Positions 5,501 through 56,827 of a DNA stretch of 64,000 nucleotides are shown piece by piece. The DNA comes from Dysgonomonas sp. BGC7 (GTDB lineage Bacteria > Bacteroidota > Bacteroidia > Bacteroidales > Dysgonomonadaceae): contig NZ_CVRP01000007.1 of the NCBI RefSeq assembly GCF_001261735.1, positions 310,001 to 374,000 on the forward strand. Direction: 5' to 3'. Below the pieces are notes generated by a model. That model saw nothing but the letters and a program-made list of their open reading frames with translations, was not told where the DNA came from and searched no databases. The translations under genes and the position numbers were made by a program. Position 1 is the first letter of the stretch; each line of letters opens with the position of its first letter.

Positions 5501-5850
5501 TGACCTTCAACTCTAATCGGACTCTAGGAATAGTAGCTCCTTACCGTAATCAGATAGCTCTTATAAAACACAAACTGGTAGAGACAGGAATTCCTGAGTT
5601 AGCTGATATCATGGTAGACACTGTCGAACGATATCAAGGGAGCCAACGAGATATTATCCTCGTTTCCTTTTGCTTCAACCATTCTTATCAACTGGACAAT
5701 TTTAGTAATATGAACAGGGAGGGTACAGTAGATCGCAAACTTAATGTTGCTCTTACCCGTGCTCGTGAACAACTGTTTCTTATCGGTAATGACTATATAC
5801 TACATCAAAATCCAATCTACAAAAATATCCTGCCGGATGATTTTAACTAA
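2521..5850 (+). CDS. Dna2-like PD-(D/E)XK nuclease fused to a superfamily 1B helicase
   Basis: A protein of 1109 residues. The middle region carries a Cas4/Dna2-type nuclease core: GRLDLL with D341, then VELKSG with E357 and K359. The C-terminal half is a UPF1/DNA2-type helicase. It has Walker A GPPGTGKT from G697, Walker B DEAS at 820-823, motif III GDHKQL, motif V ERYQGSQRD and motif VI LNVALTRAREQ. Such proteins are ATP-driven DNA or RNA translocases whose nuclease trims single strands during repair or replication. No four-cysteine Fe-S cluster like that of Dna2/AddB is obvious around the nuclease. The last two codons and the stop (TTT AAC TAA) coincide with the first bases of a dispersed repeat. 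The gene is coupled to the preceding lipoprotein by a 3-base gap. It could act in genome maintenance or defence; the context does not decide. Confidence 0.9.
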   Translation: MSDYLNEIREIDKSALSLRDKYIRLKQILERNCKDITSEESLQFPSLFSRIVFIGQKYTLPKSLERQLQNVRVKANFLLKSEQNTISTNQYEQAKETVERFLRAIGNDAVFCENEDSLVAVQEGVFEKIRVQITSIDQNSGIIECEADSFIGHTIKIQPFLSSLKEDFKETLDNLWVGAQLNLIDAKIDKSGYCVPNIIVVEPDYLIDASAIAECFQSYGSSHLHYFRRKFEPSVNTHYILLGNLANFFLDELIYAEDIDQLSFDEVFLKSFKTMPFEYAACKDIASNADFKEFMIKAQTQFANIKRVVQEDMPANGFNREECMLEPSFFCEKYGFQGRLDLLQLSSDDNRVSRIVELKSGKPPYPREDVTRIAPNHETQTIVYRLMIQSVFGKSSRQIYPTILYSSAENKGENLRFAATYHKLEKEIINIRNMVIATEHKLYTGDSDSVADVFSSLFDLDSYGRVPQFFCDKLDEMQKVLNNASTVERAYFNRYVNFISRELYLLKVGDEGSASSMSVASLWNTTFHERQDALELISDLEIERIDSSGRDMVISFQRTFPDECVNFREGEICILYPKQNEDETVLTNQILKGTVVEISSAQVVLRFRYKQRNLSFFSRYKYWTVEHDKLDHGYNNMFKSLFSFLSSAPDRKALLLGHQKPDSSYKESRSTVMTKESKEQEVIDKAIAAQDYFLIVGPPGTGKTSIFARKLIEQLYTSPDTNILVMAYTNRAVDELCAAICEAFAEREEDCTRYIRIGSELSCGEAYRHRLLQNVSHKARSRKELLDEIRHARIFVGTLASVIGKPELMAIKHFDVAIIDEASQILEPQIVGLLPLFDKFIMIGDHKQLSTITLQSENKSQVADGLLNSIELYDCRESLFERLFRICLKKEWTQAYDTLTYHGRMHEKIAELVNASFYDSQLQIATERQTEPLLYRIYDENDFFETLVATRRVSFCPVREVDNTNLTDKTNRAEADMVVSIAKAVVSLYRKNDLTFNSNRTLGIVAPYRNQIALIKHKLVETGIPELADIMVDTVERYQGSQRDIILVSFCFNHSYQLDNFSNMNREGTVDRKLNVALTRAREQLFLIGNDYILHQNPIYKNILPDDFN

Positions 5851-5944
5851 AACCTGACAAACTTGTACTCTTTTCTCTTATTTTTTCATTTATTACTTTT
5901 TTCTAGTTTGCTCGTACTGTTTATTAAAAACTTTATAGATAAAG
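5841..5944 (+). repeat. Dispersed ~100-bp intergenic element, copy A
   Basis: Head at 5841-5868: TTTTAACTAAAACCTGACAA followed by ACTTGTAC. A T-rich middle follows, and the tail ATAGATAAAG lies at 5935-5944. It shares head, tail and spacing with copies at 21284, 32526, 53242 and 56727. The head begins inside the final codons of the helicase gene and supplies its stop codon. No terminal inverted repeats or target duplication are visible. Confidence 0.8.
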
Positions 5945-6013
5945 TAAACTGTAAAATATAGGCTTGGTAAGTTCTGTAATTTTATTGAACTTATGATAAT
6001 ATAAAAATGTTTG

Positions 6014-6052
6014 GTTGAATGTTCAACTAATTGTTTTTTTGTCGTATCTTTG
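6014..6052 (+). promoter_or_regulatory. MarR operator and -7 element of the efflux operon
   Basis: A perfect inverted repeat GTTGAA-TG-TTCAAC lies at 6014-6027, typical of MarR dimer sites. It is followed by TATCTTTG (6045-6052), a TAnnTTTG -7 box 12 bases before the marR ATG at 6065. The palindrome covers the expected -33 region, so bound MarR should block RNA polymerase and autoregulate the operon. Confidence 0.7.
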
Positions 6053-6064
6053 CACTCAAATAAC

Positions 6065-6496
6065 ATGGACATGGTGCAAAAATTTATACAAACAATATTG
6101 CAGACCCAGTCTTACTACCGTCAGATAATCCATAGAGAAATACGAGAACATAATATAGATGTGACATTTGAGATGTTGCACATCTTACGATGTCTTGATG
6201 GAGCCGGCAATGTAAATCAGCAAGAGTTGGCAAATCTGACGTTTAAAGATAAATCGAGTCTGTCCTATCTTATCAAGAATATGGAAAAAAGAGGCTTGAT
6301 AAGACGAGAAGAGGATGTGAATGATAAAAGGAGCAAGCTTGTTCTCCTCACACAAAAGGGTAACGAACTTTACAAAGAAATAAAAAGAATAATTGAAGAC
6401 GTGTATAGCCAAATGGAAGAATGTCTCGATTTGGAGCATATCGGAATATGTATCGAATATATGCAGGAGTTTACACAGACTATAAAAGAAAAGTAG
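6065..6496 (+). CDS. MarR family transcriptional regulator
   Basis: About 143 residues from ATG 6065. An upstream in-frame TTG at 6011 would put the start inside the operator and promoter and is rejected. The protein has a MarR winged helix: VNQQELANLTFKDKSSLSYL is the recognition-helix region, followed by the wing LIRREEDVNDKRSKLVLLT with the family's DxRxK signature (NDKRSK). Flanking helices form the dimer interface. MarR proteins repress efflux genes and release DNA on binding small phenolic or toxic ligands. The gene heads an operon with a TolC-like protein, a membrane fusion protein and an MFS pump, and its palindromic operator sits just upstream. The stop TAG shares its G with the next start (TAGTG). 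Confidence 0.9.
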   Translation: MDMVQKFIQTILQTQSYYRQIIHREIREHNIDVTFEMLHILRCLDGAGNVNQQELANLTFKDKSSLSYLIKNMEKRGLIRREEDVNDKRSKLVLLTQKGNELYKEIKRIIEDVYSQMEECLDLEHIGICIEYMQEFTQTIKEK

Positions 6497-7803
6497 TGAA
6501 AAGAAGTTTAATAATAATTATCGCATTTTTCTCGGTTTTACCGCTACTGATAGCTCAATCGCCGTATAGGCTTACAGTAGAAGAACTTTTCGAGAGAGGG
6601 ATGCAAAATAGTATAGCAATACAGCAATCTGTAATTAAAGCGCATATCTCGGAAGACAAACTGGGTCTTGCAAAGAAAAAGCAGTTGCCTGATATTTATG
6701 TTAGTGGGCTGTTAGGGTATGTAGGTACACCGACAATTCTCGACAAAGATCTGTCTTTCTTGAAACATTCCGAAGCTCCGGATTGGAAGCAAAATTATCA
6801 AATCAGCGCCACTCAACCTATTTATCAGGGTGGAAGAATCAGCAATGGTATAGAAAAAGCCCGTCTGGAAAAAGAAGTTGCAGAATTAGGCTTGCAAAAA
6901 GATAAAGCAGAATTAAAACTGTGGCTGATAGGTAAATACCTAGACTTGTTTAATTTGTACAAAAGCCGAGATGTATATGCCCAAAATATAGAAGAAGCTA
7001 AGGTTCGTCTCAAAGATATTGAGAAAATGAAGGAGCAGGGTATGATAACAACTAACGATGTATTGCGGAGTAAGCTTTTACTCACAAACTATGAGTTGTC
7101 GTATAAAGAAACAGAAAATGATATATCTCTTGTTTCCCAGCAACTTAATATTGTATTGGGATTGGATGAAAGTCTGGTTTTAGAACCTGATATGGATCTT
7201 CTGGCTTCACGTACCAATACATTGCCCGAGAGCGATTATATATATCAGGCATATTTGCAATACCCCGATCTGAAAATGGCAGAACGTAATATAGACATAG
7301 CCCGCAGCAACCTGAAACTAACTAAGGCCGACTACCTCCCTACCTTGTCGCTACAGGCAAGTAATACTTTAGCCCGACCGATACCGAACATCTCTCCGGC
7401 GCAAGATCTGTTTCTGAACGCATGGGGGGTAAGTCTCAATTTGTCTTATCATATATCTGCCCTGTTCGATAAGAAACGCAACACCAATGTAGCCAGACAG
7501 CAGGTCAGTCTTCAAGAATTGGCGCAACTACAGCAGAAACAAAATATACGTACCAATGTGAAGTCGGCGTATGTAAAACATCAAGAAGCATTGGATAGGA
7601 TAAATGCTTTGAACGAATCGCTTGTGCAGGCAAAAGAAAATTACCGTATAGTAAAAAATAAATATTTTAACCAGTTGGCAATATTAACCGATTTGCTGGA
7701 TGCGAATTCAGTCCTTCTGACAGCAGAGCTACAACTTACTTCTGCCAAAACAAAAGCGATATATACTTATTATCAACTGCAAAAAGTTAGTGGAAATCTC
7801 TGA
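6496..7803 (+). CDS. TolC family outer-membrane efflux protein
   Basis: The start is placed at GTG 6496, overlapping the marR stop by one base. This leaves a clean signal peptide (VKRSLIIIIAFFSVLPLLIAQS) and about 435 residues. The alternative ATG at 6421 lies inside marR and adds a non-signal N-terminus. The mature chain has two long alpha-helical halves rich in Lys/Glu/Gln/Leu (for example RLEKEVAELGLQKDKAELKL) with the OEP-family pattern around YQGGRI. The protein forms the trimeric outer-membrane channel through which the downstream HlyD/MFS pair expels its substrate. Translational coupling to marR is likely. Confidence 0.92.
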   Translation: MKRSLIIIIAFFSVLPLLIAQSPYRLTVEELFERGMQNSIAIQQSVIKAHISEDKLGLAKKKQLPDIYVSGLLGYVGTPTILDKDLSFLKHSEAPDWKQNYQISATQPIYQGGRISNGIEKARLEKEVAELGLQKDKAELKLWLIGKYLDLFNLYKSRDVYAQNIEEAKVRLKDIEKMKEQGMITTNDVLRSKLLLTNYELSYKETENDISLVSQQLNIVLGLDESLVLEPDMDLLASRTNTLPESDYIYQAYLQYPDLKMAERNIDIARSNLKLTKADYLPTLSLQASNTLARPIPNISPAQDLFLNAWGVSLNLSYHISALFDKKRNTNVARQQVSLQELAQLQQKQNIRTNVKSAYVKHQEALDRINALNESLVQAKENYRIVKNKYFNQLAILTDLLDANSVLLTAELQLTSAKTKAIYTYYQLQKVSGNL

Positions 7804-7805
7804 TT

Positions 7806-8909
7806 ATGGATACAGAACAGTCAAAAATAGTAGATACAGAAAGATTAGAAGAAAAAGAAGCTTATCGAAAGCTTAAAAAGAAGCGTGTACGCAATATAAT
7901 CCTTAATACTGTCAGTATCTTGCTGGCACTGAGTGGTATAGCTTGGGGGGTAAATTTCTTTATACGATATTATCGTTACGAGATAACAAACGATGCCTCT
8001 GTAGAACAGTATATTACTCCGATAAACTCCCGTATAACAGGATACATAAAAGAGGTGCGTTTCACCGAACATCAATGGGTAGAAAAAGGAGATACACTAT
8101 TGATTATAGACGACAGGGAGTTTAAGATTAAGTTGCTTGATGCTGAAGCTGCCGTAATGGATGCAAAAAGCTCTGCATCTGTACTTTCGTCGAGCATAGC
8201 TACAACGTCAACAAATGTTACTGTTTCTGAGGCAAATATAGAAGAGGCTCAAGCTCGCCTTTGGAGAGCCGAGCAAGACCTGAAACGGTACAAGAACCTG
8301 TTGGATGCAGAATCTGTTTCGCAGCAGCAATACGATCAGGTGAAAAGTGAATATGAAGCGCAGAAGGCTCATTATTCAGCCCTGCTGAGACAGAAAGAAT
8401 CGTTGAGGTCAACATCGACAGAAGCTTCAAAAAAACAAGGTAATGCAGAAGCTTCTATACTTCGGCGTGAGGCTGATCTAGAAATGGCAAAGCTCAATCT
8501 TTCATATACGGCTATCATTGCTCCCTATAGTGGATATGTAGGACGGCGGACGCTTGAAGCGGGGCAGCTTGTGCAGGCCGGACAAACAATAACCAATCTG
8601 ATAAAGAATGATAATAAATGGATTATTGCTAACTATCGTGAAATGCAGATTGAAAATATTTATATAGGTCAGGAAATAAAAATCAAGGTAGATGCTATCA
8701 AAGGGAAAACGTTTAAGGGCAGAGTAACTGCAATATCGGAAGCTACAGGCTCGAAGTATTCGATGCTTCCTACCGATAATTCGGCAGGTAACTTTGTCAA
8801 GATACAACAGCGTATCCCTGTTCGTATCGACTTTGTAGATATTTCCGCAGAGGATATGCAAAAGTTACGAGCAGGAATGATGGTAACTACAGAAGCCATA
8901 AAGGACTAA
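7806..8909 (+). CDS. HlyD/EmrA-type membrane fusion protein
   Basis: A 367-residue protein with a Lys-rich cytosolic start, one TM helix (about 31-53, IILNTVSILLALSGIAWGVNFF), and then a split biotinyl-lipoyl domain (SRITGYIKEVRFTEHQWVEKGDTLL and later APYSGYVGRRTLEAGQLV). A coiled-coil hairpin of roughly 110 residues lies between the two halves, and a beta-barrel domain follows. It bridges the inner-membrane MFS pump to the TolC-like channel. It starts 2 bases after the tolC-like stop and ends 3 bases before the pump gene. Confidence 0.92.
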   Translation: MDTEQSKIVDTERLEEKEAYRKLKKKRVRNIILNTVSILLALSGIAWGVNFFIRYYRYEITNDASVEQYITPINSRITGYIKEVRFTEHQWVEKGDTLLIIDDREFKIKLLDAEAAVMDAKSSASVLSSSIATTSTNVTVSEANIEEAQARLWRAEQDLKRYKNLLDAESVSQQQYDQVKSEYEAQKAHYSALLRQKESLRSTSTEASKKQGNAEASILRREADLEMAKLNLSYTAIIAPYSGYVGRRTLEAGQLVQAGQTITNLIKNDNKWIIANYREMQIENIYIGQEIKIKVDAIKGKTFKGRVTAISEATGSKYSMLPTDNSAGNFVKIQQRIPVRIDFVDISAEDMQKLRAGMMVTTEAIKD

Positions 8910-8912
8910 GAG

Positions 8913-10520
8913 ATGATAATTCCAGTAATACGAACAACAACCATAAGCCCTTTCAGAAGTTGGGTACCCAATTGGCTGAAGGTGGTAGTGGCTCTCACTA
9001 TATTGGTTCCTATATTGTTAGTGAATGGAGCGTATACCGGAAGTAATATTGATATATCCAGTTATTTGGGGGTTATTTCAGAGGACATAAATATTGCATA
9101 TTATGCCTCGTCTGTAGGTATGGCTGTTGCACATTTGGTGATACCAAAGATTAAGCCTATTGCTACAGCCAAAACAATAATACTTGTGGTCTTATTATTT
9201 CAGGTGGCTCTCAGTCTTATTTGTGCCGAAACAAGCTATATCGAAGTTATCATTGTATGTAGCTTTTTTATAGGTTACTTTAAGGCTTTCTCGATGGTGG
9301 AGACTATCAATATTCTAATGCCGGCATTTAGCCCCAGTGGAACACGTAACGAGTTTTATGCTAAATTCTACCCTATAACTCTTACTTGCGGACAACTGTC
9401 TCTTGTGCTTACTGCCGAATTTGCTTATATATATAACTGGCAGTATATGTATTATTTTATGATATTGGTACTGTTAGTAGCTATTATAGCAGTAGTAGTG
9501 TGCATGACTTATGCACGCAGGCTGGTGAAAATTCCATTCAAAGAAATAGACTGGACAAGCTTCTTTCTTGTATCCGTTTGTTTTATGTCTATTATCTATG
9601 TGGCTACATATGGTAAAACAAAGGACTGGTTTACCTCGGGCAGTATTATCACTGCAACAGTGCTGATACCTCTCACCGGATGGCTGTTTATACGCAGACA
9701 ATTTTCCGATAAACCTTTTTTAGATATTAGTGTACTTAAAAACCGAAACTCGGTTACGGTGTATCTTCTTTCTTTTGTACTCATGTTCTTCGCATCATTC
9801 AGTATTCTTGTCTCCTCATATACTACCAATGTGCTGAGGCTGGATAGTACTCATATCAATGAGTTGTATCTTTATATGATTCCGGGTTTTGTTGTCGGAG
9901 CTATAATCTGCTATTATTGGTTTATGAAGGAAATACGTATGGCGTGGCTTATTTTTTTAGGATTTGCGTGTTTCACGATATCAATTGGGCTATTATATTT
10001 TAAGATTACTCCATCGGGCATGTATGAGGATTTGTATTTACTTATGTTTTTGAGAGGAGTTGGTATGCTTGTCTTATTTGTGGCATTTGCTATATATGGT
10101 ATATCTGGATTGTCTCCAAAACAGTTGATATATAATGCGTTCTTCCTTATTTCAGCTCGTTCGGCATTGGCTCCGGCTATTGGAGCATCTATACTGACTA
10201 ATTGGTTGTATCGCTTGCAACAAAAGAATGTAAGTGTACTTTCGGAAGGTGTAGACATGCAAAATGCTTTAGCCTCAAGCCAGTTTTCTTCATCGGTAAA
10301 TACGGCACTACAACAGGGATGGAGTGTAGAGGACGCACATAAAATAGCAACGAATCTATTATATCAAAGGATTCAGATACAGGCTATAACAGTCAGTATT
10401 AAAACGATTACAGGCTGGATGCTTATATTGGGTATAATTCTGTTGGTAGGGATAGTTCTTTACTTTTTACAATTCAAGCCTGTGAAGTTGATGAAGATGG
10501 GCAACGATATGTCCGGATAA
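8913..10520 (+). CDS. EmrB/QacA-type (DHA2) MFS multidrug transporter
   Basis: A 535-residue, very hydrophobic protein with about 14 predicted TM segments, the size and topology of DHA2 drug/proton antiporters. It follows an EmrA-like fusion protein and a TolC-like channel, which indicates a tripartite pump that exports toxic compounds directly across both membranes. Classic motif A is weak in this sequence, as in other Bacteroidota members. The gene ends only 1 base before the stop of the convergent CDF gene, with no terminator hairpin between them, so read-through antisense RNA is possible. Confidence 0.88.
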   Translation: MIIPVIRTTTISPFRSWVPNWLKVVVALTILVPILLVNGAYTGSNIDISSYLGVISEDINIAYYASSVGMAVAHLVIPKIKPIATAKTIILVVLLFQVALSLICAETSYIEVIIVCSFFIGYFKAFSMVETINILMPAFSPSGTRNEFYAKFYPITLTCGQLSLVLTAEFAYIYNWQYMYYFMILVLLVAIIAVVVCMTYARRLVKIPFKEIDWTSFFLVSVCFMSIIYVATYGKTKDWFTSGSIITATVLIPLTGWLFIRRQFSDKPFLDISVLKNRNSVTVYLLSFVLMFFASFSILVSSYTTNVLRLDSTHINELYLYMIPGFVVGAIICYYWFMKEIRMAWLIFLGFACFTISIGLLYFKITPSGMYEDLYLLMFLRGVGMLVLFVAFAIYGISGLSPKQLIYNAFFLISARSALAPAIGASILTNWLYRLQQKNVSVLSEGVDMQNALASSQFSSSVNTALQQGWSVEDAHKIATNLLYQRIQIQAITVSIKTITGWMLILGIILLVGIVLYFLQFKPVKLMKMGNDMSG

Positions 10521-10521
10521 T

Positions 10522-11505: not shown

Positions 11506-11529
11506 TACTGGTCGTTTTATAGTTTACTC

Positions 11530-11537
11530 CAAAGTTA
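11530..11537 (-). promoter_or_regulatory. -7 promoter element of CDF gene
   Basis: TAACTTTG on the minus strand, 25 bases upstream of the CDF start codon, matches TAnnTTTG. No -33 match. Confidence 0.5.
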
Positions 11538-11709
11538 AATAGTTTTTCCGGCAGACATGGAAAATAATTATAAAACTTATTCAATCTTTCCGCTACATAA
11601 ATTACTTCATACTAGATTGGAGAATAATTCTTTTGTTTAATACGCATCTTTTGTCCCGAAAAAGGTGCAATATCTTCTAATATACTTTAATTTTGTTATT
11701 GTTGTAGAA

Positions 11710-19277: not shown

Positions 19278-21122
19278 TTATTCTACAGTTACGGATTTAG
19301 CCAGATTGCGTGGCATGTCTACATCCCGATTTTTATTTACTGCAATATGGTATGCCAGTAACTGCAAAGGAATAGAAGTAAGTAATGGATCGAGACACTC
19401 CTGTGTGGCAGGTATTTCTATATAATGATCTGCCAGAGCTTTCATTGTTTCGTCCCCTTCATTGATGATAGCTATGACTCTGCCCTTACGAGCCTTTATT
19501 TCCTGAATATTGCTCACTACCTTTTCGTATATAGTGCTGTTCGTAGCTATTGTTACTATTGGCATCTCATTGTCTATAAGTGCTATGGGGCCATGCTTCA
19601 TCTCTGCTGCCGGATAGCCTTCGGCATGTATATAGGAGATTTCTTTTAGCTTCAGAGCTCCTTCTAGCGCTATAGGATAGTTGTAACCCCTTCCCAAATA
19701 AATGAAATTTTGAGCATAAGTAAAGATGAGGGATAGTTCTTTTATTTTATCGTTCAGCGAGAGTATGCGTTCTATTTTGTTCGGTATATCTTGTAAGTTC
19801 TTAATTGTATTCAGATATTGTTCATTGCTCACTGTTGCCTTCTCTTTTGCTATAACAAGTGCCATCAGAGTAAGAACCGTAACTTGTGCTGTGAATGCTT
19901 TTGTAGAAGCAACACCTATTTCGTGGCCGCAATGAGTATATGATCCCGAGTCTGTATTACGGGGAATGGATGACCCTACAACGTTACATACTCCGTAAAC
20001 GAATGCTCCGGCTTTGCGGGCAAGCTCTATAGCAGCCAGAGAGTCTGCTGTTTCTCCCGACTGTGATATTGCTATTACGATGTCGTCGGGATATATAACA
20101 GGGTGTCTGTACCTAAATTCGGAGGCATACTCCACTTCTACAGGGATACGGCAAAATTCTTCGAACAGATATTCTCCTATCAACCCCGCATGCCACGATG
20201 TACCACAAGCGATGATGATGATTCGGCGAGCATTTATAAATCTCTCTTTATGGTCGATAATACCGGATAGCGTAACATTCGTACCTTCTATATTGATTCG
20301 TCCACTCATACAGTTTTTTAGAGTTTCGGGTTGCTCAAATATCTCTTTCAGCATGAAGTGAGGGTAACCTCCTCTTTCCAACTGACTGAGATTCATTTCC
20401 AGCTCTTTTATCTCGGGTGTTTTCTCTATGTTCGAGATAGTAACTATTTTAGGCTCTTCGTGTCTTTTTATTATTGCGATTTCTTCATCATCGAGATAAA
20501 TAACCTTATTTGTATATTCTATAATAGGAGAGGCATCGGAACCAATGAAAAACTCATCACTGCCAATTCCTATTACCAAAGGGCTGCTTTTTCGGGCTGC
20601 TATGATCTGGTCAGGGTTTCCTCTTTCTATTACAGCAATTGCATAAGCACCTACTACCTGATTCAATGCTAGCTGAACAGCGGTGAACAAGTTGCAGTTG
20701 TTTAATTGCTTTATGTATTCGATGAGTTGTACCAATACTTCTGTGTCTGTACTGCTTTGAAAAGTATATCCTTTTCTTTGCAATTCTGCCTTCAGTACCG
20801 AATAGTTTTCTATGATCCCATTGTGTATCAGAGCCAGAGATTCACTTTGCGAATAGTGAGGGTGTGCATTTGCATTGCTGGGCTCGCCATGTGTTGCCCA
20901 TCGGGTATGTGCAATACCTATCGTACCCGAGGTATTCTTGTCGCGGGCGTATTCTTCAAGATCCTGTACTCTACCTTTGGCTTTATATACAGATAATTTA
21001 TTCTCGTTGTTTATTATTGCTACACCTGCACTGTCGTACCCTCTATACTCGAGCCTGTGCAGGCCTTTTATCAAAATGGGGTAGGCTTCTCGGAAGCCAA
21101 TATATCCTACTATTCCACACAT
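19278..21122 (-). CDS. glmS: Glutamine-fructose-6-phosphate aminotransferase (isomerizing)
   Basis: A 614-residue full-length GlmS. It begins MCGIVGYIG with Cys2 as the class-II glutamine amidotransferase nucleophile, and has RWATHG and HNGIIEN in the glutaminase domain. Two SIS domains follow (ACGTSWHAG, AISQSGETADSLAA, GRGYNYPIALEGALKLKEISY). The C-terminus is PRNLAKSVTVE, the conserved isomerase tail. It converts fructose-6-phosphate and glutamine to glucosamine-6-phosphate, the first step toward UDP-GlcNAc for peptidoglycan and lipid A. It appears monocistronic. No glmS ribozyme is seen in its leader. Confidence 0.98.
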   Translation of the reverse strand: MCGIVGYIGFREAYPILIKGLHRLEYRGYDSAGVAIINNENKLSVYKAKGRVQDLEEYARDKNTSGTIGIAHTRWATHGEPSNANAHPHYSQSESLALIHNGIIENYSVLKAELQRKGYTFQSSTDTEVLVQLIEYIKQLNNCNLFTAVQLALNQVVGAYAIAVIERGNPDQIIAARKSSPLVIGIGSDEFFIGSDASPIIEYTNKVIYLDDEEIAIIKRHEEPKIVTISNIEKTPEIKELEMNLSQLERGGYPHFMLKEIFEQPETLKNCMSGRINIEGTNVTLSGIIDHKERFINARRIIIIACGTSWHAGLIGEYLFEEFCRIPVEVEYASEFRYRHPVIYPDDIVIAISQSGETADSLAAIELARKAGAFVYGVCNVVGSSIPRNTDSGSYTHCGHEIGVASTKAFTAQVTVLTLMALVIAKEKATVSNEQYLNTIKNLQDIPNKIERILSLNDKIKELSLIFTYAQNFIYLGRGYNYPIALEGALKLKEISYIHAEGYPAAEMKHGPIALIDNEMPIVTIATNSTIYEKVVSNIQEIKARKGRVIAIINEGDETMKALADHYIEIPATQECLDPLLTSIPLQLLAYHIAVNKNRDVDMPRNLAKSVTVE

Positions 21123-21562
21123 ACTAACTTTAGTTTTGGTTGTAAAGTTAAATAAAAAAGATCATTTTTTTATTTATGAATAACAAATGTATCTTTAGTT
21201 TTATTTCCACGCTTTTATCTTGTCTTTTTGACGTCTTGTGTTTGTTCGAATTTATTAAAGTTCAAAAGTAAGTGCAACTATAATTTTAACTAAAACCTGA
21301 CAAAGTTGTACATTTTCCTCTCCTTTTTGCATTTATCATTATTTATTTCTCTTAGTTTCTCCCAAGCCTCCTCGCTAGGAGCGGTTGTATATAGATAAAG
21401 ATTTGTTGTTCTAGCAGCAGTTCTTTTTTTTGTATAAAATATAAATTCAACTTCTGATTCGCTTAAATAATCTAAAAGGAAACTTTATGTCTTAACCGTT
21501 TTGTTTATATTTGTTTCGTAGTGTTTAAGACTAATGAAAAAAATAAACTTTGTAGAGTAAAC
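21123..21562. other. 440-base divergent intergenic region
   Basis: It holds the upstream sequence of glmS (minus strand), repeat copy B (21284-21401), and a -7 box TATATTTG at 21506-21513 for the TonB_C gene. No coding frame of interest is present. Confidence 0.7.
21284..21401 (+). repeat. Dispersed intergenic element, copy B
   Basis: Head at 21284-21311: TTTTAACTAAAACCTGACAA then AGTTGTAC. Tail ATAGATAAAG at 21392-21401. The T-rich interior (CATTTATCATTATTTATTTC) resembles copy A. The copy is 118 bases long, the longest in the window; a small CTCCT-CGCT-AGGAG hairpin before the tail accounts for some of the extra length. Confidence 0.8.
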
Positions 21563-28790: not shown

Positions 28791-28821
28791 AGATATAAGT
28801 TTTGCTTATGTAAAAAAGAAA

Positions 28822-28912
28822 TGGTTGTCGTCACGACAACCAATCTTCATTGTTAACCTTAAATCTAATACTATGAAAAACACATAATATTAACGTAACA
28901 AATCGAAGATTG
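28822..28912. other. Structured intergenic segment after the sulfatase
   Basis: A perfect 10-bp inverted repeat TGGTTGTCGT-C-ACGACAACCA lies at 28822-28842; it could act as a terminator although no T run follows. Directly after come CAATCTTC (28841-28848) and its complement GAAGATTG (28905-28912). They bracket TAACCTTAAATCTAATACTATG, a leader typical of Bacteroidota SusC-like genes, which here opens only a five-codon frame (MKNT and stop). It may be a remnant of a lost gene start. Confidence 0.45.
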
Positions 28913-31900: not shown

Positions 31901-32177
31901 CCCTTTCCCTTACCTGTATTTCGTTTAGCTTGTATTCTTCCGACAGAGATTTTATATAGTCCGATTTCTTGCCTGTGGCTAGATTGGCCAGTTCCGATAT
32001 TATACGGTTTTTCATCTCGTCTGTGGCCTTGTTTGTGAAGGTGACAGCTAAGATGTGCCTGTAGGCGTATTCGGACGAGAATAGTAGGTGCAGATATTCT
32101 TCGGTCAGGCGGTGTGTTTTTCCTGAGCCTGCCGAAGCCTTATATACATGAAGATTTACTTTGTCGTTAAATAACAC
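28950..32177 (-). CDS. AddA/RecB-like UvrD-family helicase-nuclease
   Basis: A 1075-residue protein starting at GTG and overlapping the SUI1 gene by 11 bases. Motif I is ASAGSGKT with K20, motif II is IDEFQD, and VGDVKQSIYRWR and VAFTRAKNELII are motifs III/VI. The C-terminal nuclease shows GILMHEIVSKI, RPDRVMIKDGEVIVIDYKFGQK, a complete PD-(D/E)XK site. This enzyme class resects double-strand breaks and loads RecA. AddA normally works with AddB, often from an adjacent gene; no AddB is seen in this window. Confidence 0.92.
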   Translation of the reverse strand: MLFNDKVNLHVYKASAGSGKTHRLTEEYLHLLFSSEYAYRHILAVTFTNKATDEMKNRIISELANLATGKKSDYIKSLSEEYKLNEIQVRERARNTLIRILHDYSSFSVSTIDKFFQQTMRAFTREIGLGGGYNVELDTGKVLSEAIDSMLYDLESSDNKLLLDWLIRFSEEKVENGETWNIRNDIQSLSSEIFKESYKAYSDKVQSDIADKQLMTDYKDMLFAIIQTFENTSQQTGEKALNIMERYTLTPEDFKGGARSPFFSFIKWANKTVTEPTNTFRLLADDVSNWYTAKATAETKAKIESAYTELNACVCDIVAHYDDSKTYQTAYEINRYFFTLGILADVDSKIRKNASENNIMLISDTTELLNRIIEGNESPFIYEKVGMRISNYMIDEFQDTSGMQWQNFLPLVRDSLSAGNKDFIVGDVKQSIYRWRNSDWKLLDEQLDKDFETEGINHETLNANWRSARNVIMFNNAIFLQGAQLLQETYNRSLEDVDDKRLQPFLTRITKAYDELIQYIPESHKDNEGHVKVEFIENTEEQSWQDQVLERLPSQIELLQDKGYSLKDIAILVRTKKEGADVANRLLEYKSSHPDSKYRYDIISDEALFVGNSKSIKLIIALLKYLHTPTDNSLKALAVYEYFKYNNQLNAEDALQKYFSAKDELPAEITAELSRIRELPLYEMTEEIFNLFRSAMEDNEQIYMQSFLDMVLDFTVRYSSDLDSFLKWWDDTGVNKTIFTPDEQDAIRIMTIHKSKGLGFNVVLIPFCNWEIDHKLTTILWCHPEVAPFDRLHLVPVKYSQKLKNTIFSYEYFDERLHAFIDNINILYVAFTRAKNELIIYSPKPKRDEINNISSLLWASINNEQATNNNALLLSLNKHIDEDEGIFEIGENYSSQKEDNRKDTKEISIDALPSIQYDSRVKLRLKNKYYFSDTGKRDYGILMHEIVSKINTISDIDRAVQEYLTAGDITKEQEEEINDKLRQYLSSPIVSSWYSGEYKVLNEVQILQPKGTFSRPDRVMIKDGEVIVIDYKFGQKEDRKYIRQVKYYMEQIRKMGYENIKGYVCYIALGKVVEI

Positions 32178-32505
32178 GTGATTTTATATATCCTTCTTTT
32201 TGAAGGAGTTCCAGTATCTTTGTCCTAAAATCCCCTTGAATAATTATCTCTCCATCCTTGGCTGAACCTCCGACTCCGCATTTAACTTTCAGTAGTTTAC
32301 TCAATGCTTCCAGATCTTCGGTAGTGCCAATGAAACCTGTAATTAGCGAGACGGCTTTTCCTTTTCGGTTTCGTTTATCCAAAGAGATTCGGAGTTGTTG
32401 CTTTTCCTTAGCCAGAGTGTCTTGTTCTTCTTCGTCTTCTTTTTCGTATTCGAAATTTGGATTGGTCGAATATACTACATTCAGACGGTCTTTCCAGTCG
32501 CTCAT
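32167..32505 (-). CDS. SUI1/YciH family translation-initiation-factor-like protein
   Basis: A 112-residue protein. The C-terminal SUI1 domain shows LRISLDKRNRKGKAVSLITGFIG, LSKLLKVKCGVGGSAKDGEIIIQGDFRTKI, the eIF1-type signature. Bacterial YciH homologues affect start-codon selection or act as stress-time translation inhibitors. Its stop lies inside the start of the AddA-like gene, so the two are translationally coupled. Repeat copy C sits about 20 bases upstream of its ATG. Confidence 0.9.
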   Translation of the reverse strand: MSDWKDRLNVVYSTNPNFEYEKEDEEEQDTLAKEKQQLRISLDKRNRKGKAVSLITGFIGTTEDLEALSKLLKVKCGVGGSAKDGEIIIQGDFRTKILELLQKEGYIKSRVI

Positions 32506-32525: not shown

Positions 32526-32625
32526 TTTTAACTAAAACCTGACAAACTTGTACTTTTTTTGGATGTTTTTCTGTTTGTTCCTTTTTGTCGGGTCTTTATT
32601 CTAATTTTCTATTTTATAGATAAAT
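32526..32625 (+). repeat. Dispersed intergenic element, copy C
   Basis: Head 32526-32553 (TTTTAACTAAAACCTGACAA, ACTTGTAC), tail ATAGATAAAT at 32616-32625; 100 bases. It fills nearly the whole gap between mgsA and the SUI1 gene, both read on the opposite strand. Confidence 0.8.
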
Positions 32626-45031: not shown

Positions 45032-45128
45032 CAAAAATAAATGAATTGGAGTTCAGAAACCAGGAAAAAAAACGAGGCGTATCCGAAAAGCCAAATGAGT
45101 AGGAACTTACATAAACTAGACAAACTAT

Positions 45129-51932: not shown

Positions 51933-51975
51933 AAATATCTTATACTATCAAAAACACAAAAAATTCAGAGAAGGT

Positions 51976-52010
51976 ATGGAGTTCCTGCGATAGGAACTCC
52001 ATTTCTATTG
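51976..52010. terminator. Bidirectional intrinsic terminator
   Basis: ATGGAGTTCCT-GCGAT-AGGAACTCCAT, a perfect 11-bp stem followed by TTCTATT, between convergent amt and the yegP-like gene. Confidence 0.85.
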
Positions 52011-52028
52011 TAGGTTAAAAACCCGTTC

Positions 52029-52364
52029 TTATTCGAGAGTCAAATCCACGACTTCGGCATCAGGTGCATTTTTTGTAACAGATGCGATACCATTATCTCT
52101 GCTGGCCACACTTTCATACATTTCACTTGTACCTATTATTTGTCCGTTAGTGGCTTTCAGATTGAAGTATGGTTTGCCATTTTTAGCTTCCAGTTTGTCG
52201 AAGCGAGCTTCTACCAGACTGTTCTTTTTTACTGATTCAATACCGTTTTTGCAGTTTTCTTTTGTTGTGTAGCCTTCACTTGTAAGTATTACTTGTCCAT
52301 TACTAGCTTTAAGATCGAACTGAAATTCACCGTTCTTTCTTTTTTTAATTTCAAATTTTCCCAT
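52029..52364 (-). CDS. YegP-like protein, tandem DUF1508
   Basis: A 111-residue protein of two DUF1508 repeats: FEIKKRKNGEFQFDLKASNGQVILTSEGYTTKENCKNGIESVKKN, and FDKLEAKNGKPYFNLKATNGQIIGTSEMYESVASRDNGIASVTKN. The fold is a small alpha/beta barrel-like dimer. Function is unknown; homologues respond to stress. It stands alone, behind the amt terminator. Confidence 0.92.
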   Translation of the reverse strand: MGKFEIKKRKNGEFQFDLKASNGQVILTSEGYTTKENCKNGIESVKKNSLVEARFDKLEAKNGKPYFNLKATNGQIIGTSEMYESVASRDNGIASVTKNAPDAEVVDLTLE

Positions 52365-52464
52365 TTTGTTTAGTTTTAAAAAGATGTTTGTATTAAATAA
52401 GAACGTAAGATAATGATAAAATGTTTTGGCTATGTATCTTTTTCAACCAAAAGGAGTTAAATCG

Positions 52465-53169
52465 CTATTTATAGAGGAGAAAAATACAGAGTTGCTTTGC
52501 CATATCTGGCAGTGTTTTCGACCATTGTTTTACTGTCTTGGTCTTTATGTATTCATCTTCACACGTTATGTTCATGGCTATGCATAGTCTTGTATTAGCA
52601 TTGCAATGTTTGAGTATATCCTCTACCAGTTTTTGATTGCGATAGGGGGTTTCTATGAATATTTGTGTTTGATGTTCCTGATAAATAAGATTCTCGAGCT
52701 GTTTTATCTTTTTCGCCCTCTCGGAAACATCTACCGGCAAATAGCCCTGAAAAGCGAAGCTTTGTCCGTTAAAACCCGATGCCATTAGCGATAGTAGTAT
52801 CGACGACGGACCCACAAGAGGCACTACTTTGTATTCTTTTCGTTGAGCTATAGCTACTATATCGCTTCCCGGATCGGCTACAGCAGGACAGCCGGCTTCC
52901 GAAATTATTCCTACATGAAATCCTTTAGATATGGGTTGCAGATAGCTGTCTATTTGGTCGAGGTTGGTATGTTTGTTTAATTCGTAAAACGTGAGTTCAT
53001 CTATATTTATGTTACCGTCCACCTTTTTAAGGAAACGACGTGCCGACCGAATATTTTCTACTACGAAATATTTGATTTGTAAGATAATATCTTTGTTGTG
53101 TGGAGGAATAACTTCTCCTATACCGGTTTCACCCAGTGTTACAGGGATCAAAAAAAGAGATGGTTGCAT
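52465..53169 (-). CDS. RsmI-like SAM-dependent methyltransferase
   Basis: A 234-residue tetrapyrrole-methylase-fold protein. VGIISEAGCPAVADPGSDIVAIA and VPLVGPSSILLSLMASGFNGQSFAFQGYLP are the RsmI/SAM-binding signatures. RsmI makes the 2'-O-methylation at C1402 of 16S rRNA. This protein is shorter than E. coli RsmI and lacks the C-terminal domain, as is usual for the second Bacteroidota paralogue, so the exact target is uncertain. Confidence 0.85.
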   Translation of the reverse strand: MQPSLFLIPVTLGETGIGEVIPPHNKDIILQIKYFVVENIRSARRFLKKVDGNINIDELTFYELNKHTNLDQIDSYLQPISKGFHVGIISEAGCPAVADPGSDIVAIAQRKEYKVVPLVGPSSILLSLMASGFNGQSFAFQGYLPVDVSERAKKIKQLENLIYQEHQTQIFIETPYRNQKLVEDILKHCNANTRLCIAMNITCEDEYIKTKTVKQWSKTLPDMAKQLCIFLLYK

Positions 53170-53241
53170 ATATAAATAGATCGTTTGTTTATATCAAAAA
53201 AGTGAATACAGACTATTTTCGTCTGTTTATGTCAAGCATGA

Positions 53242-53340
53242 TTTTAACTAAAAAGTAACGAAAGTAACGTTTTTTGCTCATTTTTTTATTTGTTACTTTT
53301 AATACCGTTTCTTAAGCATATTTTCTTTATATAGATAAAG
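53242..53340 (+). repeat. Dispersed intergenic element, diverged copy F
   Basis: It begins TTTTAACTAAAA but continues AGTAACGAAAGTAACG instead of the usual head. The T-rich interior (CATTTTTTTATTTGTTACTTTT) resembles copy A, and the tail ATAGATAAAG at 53331-53340 is intact. It is 99 bases long, in the same + orientation, in the 360-base gap between the RsmI-like and RsmF-like genes. Confidence 0.65.
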
Positions 53341-53500
53341 TTTCGAAAAAAGAAAACAGTTTCCACTCCTTTATCTAAAGTATGATTCTCATAGACAAAA
53401 ATAAGTAAAAAATCTATAGAGTCTCTTTTATATCAGCTATACATACATGCGAATGAATAAATAATAGTGATTCTCTTATTCTGAAAAAATATTTTTGTCC

Positions 53501-53508
53501 TAACTTTG
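53501..53508 (+). promoter_or_regulatory. -7 promoter element of rsmF-like gene
   Basis: TAACTTTG, 21 bases before the ATG at 53530; it rules out the in-frame TTG at 53506 as start codon. The -33 is not clear. Confidence 0.6.
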
Positions 53509-53529
53509 CAAAAATATAAATATTTAAGA

Positions 53530-54909
53530 ATGAATCTGCCTCTCGATTTCATAGCTCGTACAAAACCTTTATTGAAAGAAGAATGGGACAAGTTTGCTGC
53601 ATCTCTCAACGAAGAAACTCCTGTTAGCATACGCTATAATAAAATTAAGACTGCACAGATAGATAAGCCTGATTTTTCTTCTGTTCCATGGGCTGATTCA
53701 GGATATTATTTGTCTCAAAGACCTCAATTTACGTTCGATCCTTTGTTTCATGCCGGATGCTATTATGTACAGGAAGCTTCTTCTATGTTTGTCGGACATG
53801 CTCTGAAACAGTACCTGAAAGGAGATGTAAAAGTTCTTGACCTATGTGCGGCGCCGGGAGGAAAGTCGACGTTGATAGCTGATACTATCAGTAGCCAAAG
53901 TTTGTTGGTAGCTAATGAAATAATTCGCTCTCGGGCAAATATATTGGCTGAGAATATTGCTAAATGGGGTAATCCTAATACTGTGGTTACCAACAATAAT
54001 TCATTTGAGATAGGTAAACTTAGAGAGTTCTTCGATGTCATACTTGTAGATGCTCCATGTTCGGGCGAAGGTATGTTTCGCAAAGACGAAAATGCGATTT
54101 CCGAATGGTCTGAAGATAATGTGATGCATTGTCAGGCTCGCCAACGTGAAATATTGGCTGATATATGGCCTGCGCTCAAGCCGGGAGGATTGCTGCTGTA
54201 TAGCACTTGCACATATAACATGGAGGAGAATGAGGCAAATGTAGAATGGCTTAGGAGCGAGCTATATGCAGAAATTCTTCCTGTAGAAACAAAAGAAGAG
54301 TGGGGGATAACCCCTTCTTTGATAGATGGAGTAACAGCCTATCGCTTCTTTCCGCATAAGACCAAGGGCGAAGGCTTTTTCTTTGCTTTATTGAGAAAGC
54401 CGGAATCTGAACAAACGGGTATGAAGAGAACTAAAGGTGGTAAGAACAAACAGGCAAAGGAAGACTTACCTTCTGTATATAAGAACTATATACTGAATAA
54501 AGAGCAATTCACCTTCTATCAAAAGAGAGATAATTGGTATGCCTTTCCTTCCGCTCAGTACGAAGACCTATTGACAATAAGTTCCATCCTTAATGTCGTT
54601 TCGGAAGGTATTTGTCTGGGGCAATTTAAAGGGAAAGATTTTATCCCCGATCAGTCTTTGGCTCTGACTAATAGCCTGAATATAGAAGCTTTCACTTCCT
54701 GCGAAATAGACTGGGCTACTGCCATCGCATTTCTTCGCAAAGAGGCACTGGTACTGGCTGATTATCCCAAGGGCTATTTGCTACTCACTTATCGAGATAT
54801 ACCTCTGGGCTTTGTGAAAAATATAGGGAACAGAGCAAATAATCTTTATCCGCAGGAGTGGCGCATTCGCTCTTCCAATCTCCCAGAGAGAGAAGTGAGG
54901 GTGATTTAG
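53530..54909 (+). CDS. RsmF/NOL1-NOP2-Sun family rRNA (cytosine-C5) methyltransferase
   Basis: About 459 residues. The SAM site is VLDLCAAPGGKSTLIADTI. Motif IV is VDAPCSGEGMFRKDE with the Pro-Cys catalytic pair. Motif VI YSTCTYNMEENEANV supplies the second cysteine. The C-terminal half includes a PUA-like RNA-binding region (LADYPKGYLLLTYRDIPLGFVKN), as in RsmF/YebU. It methylates a cytosine of 16S rRNA or tRNA. Its stop abuts the stop of the convergent glycosyltransferase with no gap. Confidence 0.93.
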   Translation: MNLPLDFIARTKPLLKEEWDKFAASLNEETPVSIRYNKIKTAQIDKPDFSSVPWADSGYYLSQRPQFTFDPLFHAGCYYVQEASSMFVGHALKQYLKGDVKVLDLCAAPGGKSTLIADTISSQSLLVANEIIRSRANILAENIAKWGNPNTVVTNNNSFEIGKLREFFDVILVDAPCSGEGMFRKDENAISEWSEDNVMHCQARQREILADIWPALKPGGLLLYSTCTYNMEENEANVEWLRSELYAEILPVETKEEWGITPSLIDGVTAYRFFPHKTKGEGFFFALLRKPESEQTGMKRTKGGKNKQAKEDLPSVYKNYILNKEQFTFYQKRDNWYAFPSAQYEDLLTISSILNVVSEGICLGQFKGKDFIPDQSLALTNSLNIEAFTSCEIDWATAIAFLRKEALVLADYPKGYLLLTYRDIPLGFVKNIGNRANNLYPQEWRIRSSNLPEREVRVI

Positions 54910-55728
54910 TTATCCTTTGACAAAGCCTAATATTCTGCCTATTTTACAGAATGCACGGAAGCAATTGTATATCCAGCTTTTCGATTTCATAATGTCTGTA
55001 ACAAAGCCATTCTGTTCTAGATAATAGAGCCGTTCGAGTCTTTTTACGGCGCTTTCTTTCAGCAATTCTCTGCATACCTTTAGTTTTTCGGGGTAAATAA
55101 CCTCGCCGCCTATCTGAGTGCTGAAACCTTCCATATTGTATATAACAATAAAAGTGTCGACATATTTCACCGGCAGATGGTCGATTGCTATTCCCTGAAA
55201 GAACAATTTCCAATCGGCTACCACTCGCAACGATTCGTCGTATAGACCAAACTGTTCAAAATTGCTGCGGTGTATAAAGAATGCCTGATGGCATAAGAAG
55301 CCCGAAAATAGCTCGTATATAGCCAGATTCCAATCACGGTCTTTATACGATGTGTCGGGTGTCAACTGACCTTTTTGCTCCATGTAAAAACTTCCGCAGA
55401 TAAATGGATCATGAGGATCGGCGGCAAAAACTTTTTCGAGCGTATCGGCAGCATAAAGAGCATCTCCCGAATTAAGGAAATAGAGGTATTCCCCTTTGGC
55501 CTGCTTTATGCCCTTGTTTTGTGCATTGTATATGCCACTGTCTTTTTCACTTACCCAATAAGATACTTTGTCGCCTAGTTCTTCTATTAATCCTACACTA
55601 CCATCAGTAGACTTACCGTCGATAATAATGAATTCGTAGTCGGTAAATGTTTGCGATACTACGCTGTCTATCGTTTTTCTGAGACCTGCTTCATCATTCA
55701 GGTTTATTGTTATTATTGATAACTTCAT
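54910..55728 (-). CDS. Family 2 glycosyltransferase
   Basis: A 272-residue GT-A fold protein: MKLSIITINLNDEAGLRKTIDSVVSQTFTDYEFIIIDGKSTDGS, then IYNAQNKGIKQAKGEYLYFLNSGD as the nucleotide-sugar/metal region. It transfers a sugar from a nucleotide donor to a growing surface glycan; donor and acceptor are not predictable. It is close to the GT2 at 61388 in pattern (ITINxND, SGD). It is the last gene of the minus-strand polysaccharide cluster. Confidence 0.92.
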   Translation of the reverse strand: MKLSIITINLNDEAGLRKTIDSVVSQTFTDYEFIIIDGKSTDGSVGLIEELGDKVSYWVSEKDSGIYNAQNKGIKQAKGEYLYFLNSGDALYAADTLEKVFAADPHDPFICGSFYMEQKGQLTPDTSYKDRDWNLAIYELFSGFLCHQAFFIHRSNFEQFGLYDESLRVVADWKLFFQGIAIDHLPVKYVDTFIVIYNMEGFSTQIGGEVIYPEKLKVCRELLKESAVKRLERLYYLEQNGFVTDIMKSKSWIYNCFRAFCKIGRILGFVKG

Positions 55729-55737
55729 GGGAAAATG

Positions 55738-56616
55738 CTATTTTCTTTTCGATTTTAATAGAAATGGGCTTACAAATATTAGTTTTTGGTAGAGCATAAG
55801 CACTGCTGCGGCTTTCCTCAGTCCATACCCCTTGGCATAGTATATTTGTAACTTATACATCCTCCTGATGCGCTCTATAATTGTTTTTTTGAACTGGTTG
55901 CTTGTATATTTATTGAATTCGTCTAATAAGAATAACATCCAGGCAGTTTGGTTGAGCGGTTTCAGCGTGGAAGACATTCCTCCCAAATGCTGCCTGTATA
56001 CGGCCATATAGTCGGGCAGGAATTTTATTTTTCCCGATAGCGATACTATAAGTTGCAGGGCATAGTCTCCGTTCTTTACCTTGTAGTACCAGTCGGGCGT
56101 TTTGTGTGCCTCTTTGCGAAAGAATATAGAGGCAGTGAGCAATCCCCAGTCTTTAGCCAGAATATCCTCGGTAGTAAGTACGTCACGCTCCATTTCTATG
56201 TTTTCGTCCAAGTGCCCACACATCAGTGTGTGAACCTTATGCGAACATAGGGCAAAGTCGGGGTGGGCTTCCATAAAGTCGAACTGCTTCTGCAATTTGT
56301 ATGGGTCTGACCAATAGTCGTCACCGTCGCACAGAGCGATGTATTTGCCTTGTCCGCTGCTAATATTGTTTATCCAATTGAGCATCATACCCTGATTGGT
56401 TTCCGGCAGACGAAGACGTATTATATCGGGGTATTTCTTTTGGTACTCAATACAGATCTCACGAGTGCTGTCTGTGCTGCAATCTTCCCCTATTACAAGT
56501 TTGAAGGGGAAATCTGTCTTTTGCATCACAACTCCCTCTATGGCTTCAGCAATAAATTTCTCATGATTGTATGTAATCATGGAAACGGATACCATTATGT
56601 TTTTTTGCTCTGACAT
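55738..56616 (-). CDS. Family 2 glycosyltransferase
   Basis: A 292-residue GT2 of the variant with VSMITYNHEKFIAEAIEGVVMQKTDFPFKLVIGEDCSTDSTREI and YIALCDGDDYWSDPYKLQKQFDFME. The C-terminal part is basic with a hydrophobic end. The start codon ATG 56614-56616 shares its first base with repeat copy D, so the promoter or ribosome site of this gene lies within that repeat. It begins the distal GT pair, separated from the rest of the cluster by two repeat copies. Confidence 0.92.
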   Translation of the reverse strand: MSEQKNIMVSVSMITYNHEKFIAEAIEGVVMQKTDFPFKLVIGEDCSTDSTREICIEYQKKYPDIIRLRLPETNQGMMLNWINNISSGQGKYIALCDGDDYWSDPYKLQKQFDFMEAHPDFALCSHKVHTLMCGHLDENIEMERDVLTTEDILAKDWGLLTASIFFRKEAHKTPDWYYKVKNGDYALQLIVSLSGKIKFLPDYMAVYRQHLGGMSSTLKPLNQTAWMLFLLDEFNKYTSNQFKKTIIERIRRMYKLQIYYAKGYGLRKAAAVLMLYQKLIFVSPFLLKSKRK

Positions 56617-56643
56617 TTTAACTAAAACCTGACAAACTTGTAC
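56616..56643 (+). repeat. Dispersed element, head-only copy D
   Basis: TTTTAACTAAAACCTGACAA followed by ACTTGTAC, identical to the heads of copies A and C. No ATAGATAAAG tail follows before the next copy begins 84 bases later. Its first T is the A of the GT2 start codon on the other strand. Confidence 0.75.
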
Positions 56644-56726
56644 AACTTAAAAGCCCCTCTTTGTCTTCCCGGAGGGTAGAAACTGCTGACGCAATAAACT
56701 TATTCCACCTGTGCTAGCTTTTGACT

Positions 56727-56827
56727 TTTTAACTAAAACCTGACAAAGTTGTACTTGTTTCGTCAATATTATATTTTTCTTAAACTTTATTGTAATCAAA
56801 GGATTATCTCTCACGATATAGATAAAG
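56727..56827 (+). repeat. Dispersed element, copy E
   Basis: Head 56727-56754 (AGTTGTAC variant like copy B), T-rich interior, tail ATAGATAAAG at 56818-56827; 101 bases. It forms a same-orientation pair with copy D and lies inside the polysaccharide cluster. Confidence 0.8.

Follow-up and report, generated by a model that had tools for sequence, protein, structure and literature searches.

The stretch of DNA analysed here (the window) comprises 64,000 nucleotides (nt) of Dysgonomonas sp. BGC7, positions 310,001 to 374,000 of contig NZ_CVRP01000007.1. It holds a dispersed intergenic repeat of about 100 nt with a conserved head and a conserved tail, lying beside ordinary genes, 9 of 10 of which have a Pfam match (Table 1). 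Six heads are present in the window and five of these are followed by a tail, in agreement with the preliminary description of this DNA. Five heads are exact matches to TTTTAACTAAAACCTGACAA, all on the plus strand (shuffled expectation 0.01), and the tails read TATAGATAAA, of which 0.70 would be expected in the window; two more TATAGATAAA matches (11790 and 24218) have no head within 330 nt and fall inside frames of the open reading frame (ORF) list. The sixth head belongs to copy 4, between divergent genes, which had been described as diverged and was borne out as such: it has the same 12-base core as the other heads and a different second half, AGTAACGAAAGTAAC. Two decayed heads said to precede prfA were not recovered, as a search of the window with three mismatches gave only two extra matches (21592 and 34405, both on the minus strand) at a chance rate of 1.36, and a second search of the window gave none.

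Head, tail and interior of the element

With a 20-base head and at most two mismatches, the BGC7 genome contains 107 heads, 63 forward and 44 reverse, and the reversed control gave 0. The single orientation reported earlier therefore holds for the window copies and not for the whole genome; the one-strand polarity seen in the window is local, a warning that the polarity of a repeat in a single window can mirror gene layout. A looser head pattern gave 120 matches in the same genome (71 + 49) and matches in 16 of 61 genomes searched, all 16 from one genus. This genus is Dysgonomonas, since at two named Dysgonomonas loci the sequence around the gene described below is identical to that at loci of the genus (L166 and L205; L148 and L206). 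Among the 80 matches listed in a scan of named genomes, 55 were from Dysgonomonas, 19 from Bacteroidia bacterium PG1894_169 and 6 from others. A genome of another genus in the same family, G029 (G numbers designate genomes and L numbers loci), has 63 pattern matches.

The anatomy of the element was read from 101 distinct heads in fetched stretches, with 330 nt read after each head. For 76 of the 101, ATAGATAA occurs before any other head within this distance; the spacing between head and tail ranges from 80 to 252 nt, with a chief group near 85-95 and a second near 112-118. The second half of the head is variable, mainly CCTGACAAA[CG]TTGTAC, and GTNAC-N4-GTNAC forms also occur. Relatives have GTNAC-N4-GTNAC as their head, frequently followed 22-23 nt further on by a third half-site in inverted orientation, GTNACNTTT: it is found at 11 of 14 sites in G014 (10 at 22 nt, one at 31), at 6 of 8 in G017 (all at 22 nt and largely at the same places as in G014) and at 6 of 30 in G003 (22-23 nt), or 23 of 52 when pooled, against a shuffle mean of 0.95. 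The G003 heads are without the TTTTAACT part, most of those read being AAAAA or AAAAG followed by GTNAC-N4-GTNAC, and a tail is present at 16 of the 30 places read. T-tracts in the BGC7 elements recur near positions 31-33 and 41-44, and in those with GTNAC-type heads also near 55-57. The two ends of the element, compared by eye, are alike as a weak inverted repeat (TTTATCTATA and TTTAACTAAA, 8 of 10 positions). Interiors are mosaic, and tandem head units occur.

Several further features of these repeats were observed. At BGC7 loci such as L003, L004, L012 and L027, interiors often carry GC-rich palindromic modules (AGCCTCCC...GGGAGG) that resemble a second repeat family. A 30-nt sequence, AACCAACGGTCACAGGAGCGAAGCGTATGT, and its variants lie exactly between the half-sites in some heads and also occur at certain places other than heads (19 rows at up to four edits, with at least one place listed twice, and 0 in the reversed control); examples are L415 and L424 in G017, and L379, L229, L357, L151 and L317. 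Five loci of PG1894_169 (L124, L146, L153, L159 and L182) are tandem arrays of 3-5 heads in the same orientation with no intervening tail; a tail follows the last head in three of the five, L153 has none within 400 nt and L124 is cut off. A larger palindromic parent was considered and rejected: a 60-nt head-side module is found in 23 of 87 left flanks, always with CC-type heads or close variants, and in 3 of 87 right flanks, and is for these reasons regarded as a feature of a subset.

Table 1. Copies of the element and other annotated features in the window
Feature	Position	Strand	Head	Tail	Remark
Copy 1	5841-5943	+	5841-5868	5934-5943	exact TTTTAACTAAAACCTGACAA head
Copy 2	21284-21399	+	21284-21311	21390-21399	exact TTTTAACTAAAACCTGACAA head; interior with GC-rich stretch; upstream of glmS-like gene
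Copy 3	32526-32624	+	32526-32553	32615-32624	exact TTTTAACTAAAACCTGACAA head; upstream of SUI1-domain gene
Copy 4	53242-53339	+	TTTTAACTAAAA + AGTAACGAAAGTAAC	53330-53339	different dialect
Head-only unit	56616-56726	+	exact TTTTAACTAAAACCTGACAA at 56616		111 nt; on head side of copy 5
Copy 5	56727-56826	+	56727-56754	56817-56826	exact TTTTAACTAAAACCTGACAA head
Helicase-like ORF	2521-5850				final codons AAC TAA contributed by head of copy 1 (5841-5850)
glmS-like gene	19278-21122	-
SUI1-domain gene	32167-32505	-
Thiamine pyrophosphate (TPP) riboswitch	1766-1861	-			Rfam match
FopS small RNA	28811-28883	-			Rfam match
DUF805 RNA	45041-45109	+			Rfam match

The head-only unit is missing at the orthologous place in the genome UBA5412, and BLAST finds other copies of it in the BGC7 genome at 74-85% identity. 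A simple tandem duplication is not favoured for this unit because its interior differs from that of its neighbour and matches units elsewhere in the genome. The UBA5412 ortholog of copy 5 has kept the head and the tail and not the interior.

Placement beside genes and persistence at orthologous places

Genome-wide, the element lies 5' of the neighbouring gene and its orientation follows that gene, contrary to the earlier statement that copies are oriented regardless of the adjacent genes. ORFs were called crudely, as the longest frames with ATG starts, and distances to start codons are therefore approximate. Taking the head strand as plus, the left and right neighbours of 99 BGC7 heads are (-,-) in 60 cases, (-,+) in 32, (+,-) in 3 and (+,+) in 3, with one head inside a frame, so that for 92 of the 98 heads outside frames the left-hand neighbour lies on the strand opposite to the head. 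The telling count is the tandem one, 60 against 3, because 32 of the 92 are divergent gaps, which are uninformative on orientation. Convergent gaps hold only 3 of the 98 heads; such gaps are rare anyway (in 400 kb of G014, the 112 gaps that measure 120 nt or more comprise 73 tandem, 31 divergent and 8 convergent ones), and it is therefore tandem orientation and not convergent scarcity that carries the signal. The same tandem bias is seen in G003 (13:2, 30 places), in UBA5412 (12:2) and in other sets; in G029, 24 distinct places were read, with 15 in tandem gaps and matching orientation, no tandem case with the reverse orientation, 5 in divergent and 3 in convergent gaps, and 1 inside a frame. 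The motif TAnnTTTG, which we take to be the Bacteroidetes -7 box, occurs 49 times after the head in the direction of the gene and 23 times on the opposite strand; the first count compares with a mean of 15.6 after shuffling of single bases.

The polarity that is present is relative to the neighbouring gene and not to replication. The suggestion of a strand-polarised chromosomal site, in the manner of FtsK-orienting polar sequences (KOPS), was rejected: both strands are used genome-wide, and in G003, a single contig with 87 sites, the best two-arc consistency was 0.621 against a shuffled mean of 0.622 (arcs fitted, origin unmapped), with 169 of 300 shuffled orientations reaching the observed split.

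The elements persist at their places while their heads change. Corresponding places in relatives were found through the flanking genes, independently of the element. At the locus of copy 3, the element is present in 3 of 7 relatives with both flanks and as a remnant in one more, four one-flank relatives being dropped. For the locus at 56616 it is present in 5 of 10, after eight non-syntenic rows were dropped, among them L364 with heads in the same orientation and L367 in the opposite one. The locus of copy 1 has the element in 3 of 4; six genomes with the right-hand gene only lack it, and nine gave no right flank. For copy 2, where the glmS-like gene alone was required and 480 nt before the gene were read, it is found in 8 of 17, one of them weak (G023, no exact tail); L384 has, further, a head in the opposite orientation. 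Summed by hand over these four loci, 19 of 38 tests show an element at the corresponding place; as a base rate, G014 carries 14 sites among 328 genes, and the window 5 loci among 59.

A separate comparison, which started from elements in both genomes and left out BGC7 rows (L116) and rows matched through terS, the gene described below, gave 27 locus pairs with a common flanking gene (hand count): 21 on the same side and in the same orientation, 2 shifted by one gene, and 4 opposite or different. At the same place in different genomes the head sequence differs, as genome-specific dialects. Three aligned pairs (copy 1 with L107 and L194, copy 5 with L145) have head and tail in both members and an interior that is hardly alignable; in the copy 1 pairs, the alignment puts the two tails slightly or wholly out of register.

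The sister genomes G014 and G017, which share about 95% identity across 400 kb (91-99% in the flanks), show the same at closer range. Of 14 exact G014 sites, 13 can be aligned to G017, where 8 are intact and 5 changed in place (two by point changes, one by one 9-bp repeat fewer, and two by 30 bp extra between half-sites); each of the 8 exact sites of G017 has its counterpart in G014, and positional gains or losses amount to 0 of 13. As a side observation, the GTGACAAAAGTGAC dialect of G017 accounts, among the sites listed (hand count), for 21 of 28 sites on contig C1, 13 of 17 on C2 and 1 of 20 on C3, mis-binning of contigs being possible, and the terS copies on these three contigs bear each contig's local head form.

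A gene-bearing form with a TerS-like protein

Some heads with no tail nearby have one at a distance of about 600 nt, and a single reading frame, on the other strand, lies in the interval. This gene-bearing unit of about 0.65 kb consists of a tail, a single orphan gene (terS) for a homologue of the terminase small subunit (TerS), and a head. Six such copies are present in the BGC7 genome, each with head and tail when one mismatch is allowed in the tail; the absence of an open frame, noted earlier, is thus true of the window copies and not of the family. In Marseille-P4677 a gene-bearing unit (L206) occupies the place where UBA5412 (L140) has both ends and, between them, a short frame with no shown relation to terS. 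A tail-like TTATCNATN lies within 110 nt before the start in 35 of 45 distinct terS units, and the third half-site is present at 21-24 nt in 9 of the 16 with a canonical head.

By its sequence, the unit protein fits a terminase small subunit. It matches phrog_309, a terminase small subunit family of PHROG (E 6.6e-12 and 1.5e-13), and among phage proteins its best matches are entries annotated as terminase small subunit in two records of Porphyromonas phages, with 36% identity across 63% of the query (E 5e-16); plasmid records gave no match. Phage-type members of the family adjoin a Pfam terminase large subunit in three of the four tested (L238, L239 and L240), the neighbour in L251 having no Pfam match. 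No Pfam terminase was found in the one downstream gene examined for each of the six BGC7 units, the rest of the genome not being searched; these genes encode GSCFA, nitroreductase, TilS-like, UvrB or M28 peptidase proteins, or have no match. A search with alignment against solved structures gave nothing significant (best 2ao9, E 0.54), an AlphaFold model has middling confidence (mean predicted local distance difference test score 70.5), and a defence library gave only a weak helix-turn-helix (HTH) match. No Y1 (HUH) transposase match was found for the unit protein, and no RAYT search of the genome was made.

Sites and terS co-occur across the genus. The gene is found in 20 of 25 genus genomes, in up to 19 copies, and 19 of these 20 hold at least nine sites (larger of two pattern counts; hand tally), the lowest being G006 with 9 and G022 with 10, whereas none of the five genomes without terS exceeds 5. 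In the order, a terS profile search at E 1e-10 found the gene in 9 of 393 genomes, four from this genus and one being G029. A further observation concerns G015, where other repeats lie behind the stop codons of terS at L236, L244, L253, L255, L257 and L260; among them is a palindrome-rich stretch resembling one more short repeat nested within, and at L244 a head is reached about 290 nt further on.

Interpretation and comparison with known systems

A mobile origin of the elements is likely, because gene-bearing and gene-less forms with shared ends are dispersed through the genome, interiors are mosaic, and the unit at 56616 has been gained or lost relative to UBA5412. The proposal of a non-autonomous mobile element thus holds as to origin, with a gene-bearing form that has the same ends, dispersed copies and presence that varies between species. 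It does not hold further, as no catalytic transposase domain is recognised in the TerS homologue that the unit encodes, and the positions of the elements do not change from one sister genome to the other. We do not apply the label of miniature inverted-repeat transposable element, having found no parent element that carries a transposase and having been unable to show a target duplication.

On balance, and with little better than even confidence, we regard the elements as a long-lived population of putative binding sites for the TerS-like protein, mobile in origin and retained upstream of genes. What speaks for this, and was observed, is that both forms have tail and head in common, that half-sites keep a fixed geometry in relatives, that terS and sites go together across the genus, that elements lie 5' of genes in one orientation and persist at corresponding places, and that heads are specific to each genome. 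The window copies would belong, as members without a gene, to a family of binding arrays spread over the genome, and the protein, probably oligomeric, would bind their half-sites. New copies may be laid down rarely, by a mobile process dependent on the TerS-like protein, while old copies would stay and have their heads rewritten in place by gene conversion or by addition of head units, which would keep the sites matched to the protein. Perhaps the sites are retained since a protein bound between a gene and the next promoter is useful or harmless, as a transcription boundary or in regulation. Binding, mobilisation and any effect on transcription at the sites are what we infer here. It is also tempting to speculate, and only tentatively, that a phage TerS has been turned into a chromosome-wide DNA-binding system with dozens to hundreds of gene-upstream sites, whose dialects track the resident terS copies through homing-like rewriting in place; perhaps the G017 dialect would then be specific to each chromosomal region.

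A number of observations weigh against a retained population of TerS-binding sites. The commonest BGC7 head, CCTGACAAA[CG]TTGTAC, does not consist of two clean GTNAC half-sites, and no more than 7 of 87 BGC7 elements carry a third half-site by the strict definition (shuffle 0.7). Only 16 of the 45 terS units have a canonical GTNAC pair directly after the gene, other repeats follow some terS stop codons in G015, and terS units are less orientation-biased, with a co-directional downstream gene in 32 of 44. The co-occurrence has an exception in G016 (five terS, only 2 sites by these patterns), four of the five terS-less genomes are incomplete (55-82%), the fifth being G013 (98% complete; 1 and 3 sites by the two patterns), and nine sites is a low bar because even the reversed control gives 8-11 matches in some of the genus genomes. 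Between G014 and G017, substitutions amount to 5/264 (1.9%) in the head, 57/844 (6.8%) in the interior, 86/714 (12.0%) in the left flank and 44/768 (5.7%) in the right flank; the low head figure speaks for the reading, but it is biased downwards because the sites were chosen in G014, and low head substitution alone is no proof of selection. Genes beside the window copies have no common functional theme, and a regulatory role is proposed from position. Empty sites were sought, as the preliminary description had proposed, and the relatives compared yielded neither a clean empty site nor a target duplication, deeper comparisons being unable to resolve junctions. Finally, the N-terminal HTH of the unit protein passes the cut-off of PF01527 'Transposase' (E 3e-7 to 4.4e-6); the match spans only the HTH (residues 2-43 to 2-45), and no transposase domain was found beyond it in this protein, with no search made for a transposase acting from elsewhere.

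This last match, together with the shared ends of units with and without the gene, the mosaic interiors and tandem head units, and presence or absence between species (as of the extra unit at 56616), would suit purely selfish short interspersed repeats derived from the terS unit. Some transposase or recombinase would insert them preferentially near promoters in one orientation, loss would be slow and gene conversion would homogenise the heads. We consider this explanation doubtful, although not negligible. Parasitism of BOX elements was argued, in the available part of the source, from enrichment downstream of genes (PMC3049150), whereas here convergent gaps hold 3 of 98 heads and the tandem ratio is 60:3; the convergent part of this argument is weakened by the small number of such gaps (8 of 112). 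Head and tail also outlast the interior at orthologous places, contrary to what selfish repeats would suggest. Upstream placement and orientation, retention at orthologous places and the promoter-like TAnnTTTG after the head could also be produced by a large regulon of the cell itself, with regulatory or insulator sites that terS units did no more than capture. This is unlikely given a dispersed multicopy gene bounded by the same ends, site numbers near background in terS-less genomes and window neighbours without a common function.

In phages the pac site is found close to terS, and satellites bring a TerS of their own; the elements might accordingly be pac sites at which the TerS-like protein steers the large terminase of a helper phage, so that flanking host DNA is packaged and spread between cells. 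Membership in the terminase small subunit family and the lack of a large-subunit match in the one gene downstream of each BGC7 unit are consistent with such a role, which would not lead one to expect elements 5' of genes with a single orientation and which we consider very unlikely. Least probable of all is a structured RNA, raised in the preliminary description, or a transcription terminator read in the direction of the gene: elements often lie just past upstream stop codons, some interiors have GC-rich palindromes and, of 46 elements folded, 8 and 6 have z below -2, but the mean z is only -0.5 and -0.7, and an Rfam search gave no match at any window copy.

Among known systems, phage and satellite TerS share with the unit the protein family and, as in the pac arrangement of a small-subunit gene beside a repeated DNA motif, a gene of this type adjoining a repeat. 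The system described here differs in its dozens to hundreds of chromosomal sites and in having no large-subunit match directly downstream of the six BGC7 units. Phage satellites such as phage-inducible chromosomal islands (PICI) have an integrase, att sites and replication genes as hallmarks, and only one gene, with no integrase or replication gene, lies between tail and head here. Another parallel comes from Porphyromonas gingivalis, a member of the same order as the host. Its BrickBuilt elements have a leader and a tail around a variable repeated interior, and differ, in the available text of PMC4596501, by terminal inverted repeats like those of insertion sequences and by 23-nt tandem repeats, with no terS link described there. 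BOX of Streptococcus pneumoniae, according to the accessible portion of PMC3049150, comprises modular repeats that measure about 100 nt and vary in their interiors, and reading frames are encoded by some of its large forms. BOX and RUP are alike to the present elements as modular interspersed repeats, and differ, as far as the accessible accounts go, in their inverted ends, target duplications and a distribution that was read as parasitic; the present elements lie 5' of genes and gave no sign of a duplication.

RAYT proteins are of the Y1 transposase type, and the present elements are not classed as REPIN-RAYT because the unit gene is a TerS homologue and not a Y1 transposase; orientation locked to genes and several dispersed gene copies are further differences. 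REPIN-RAYT systems nevertheless combine, in the accessible parts of the sources, dispersed short intergenic sequences, one associated protein family and long persistence (PMC8049555, PMC3116915, PMC8266576). A persistent short intergenic population tied to a single gene family was likewise found here. Among the titles listed from the open-access literature, none dealt with repeats linked to TerS. If the more speculative reading as a chromosome-wide system is true, it would constitute a global DNA-binding, self-maintaining repeat system of a kind not described in anything listed there. The reading as TerS-binding sites would add a way in which a protein of phage packaging can come to maintain a population of repeats on a chromosome. 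The elements would also offer a natural experiment in how hundreds of binding sites change together, in which 24 same-genus relatives with differing dialects at the same loci make coevolution, conversion and selection directly testable against one another. By analogy, REPIN-RAYT may be the closest functional counterpart: the system would work like such a population, with a relative of a packaging protein in place of the transposase.

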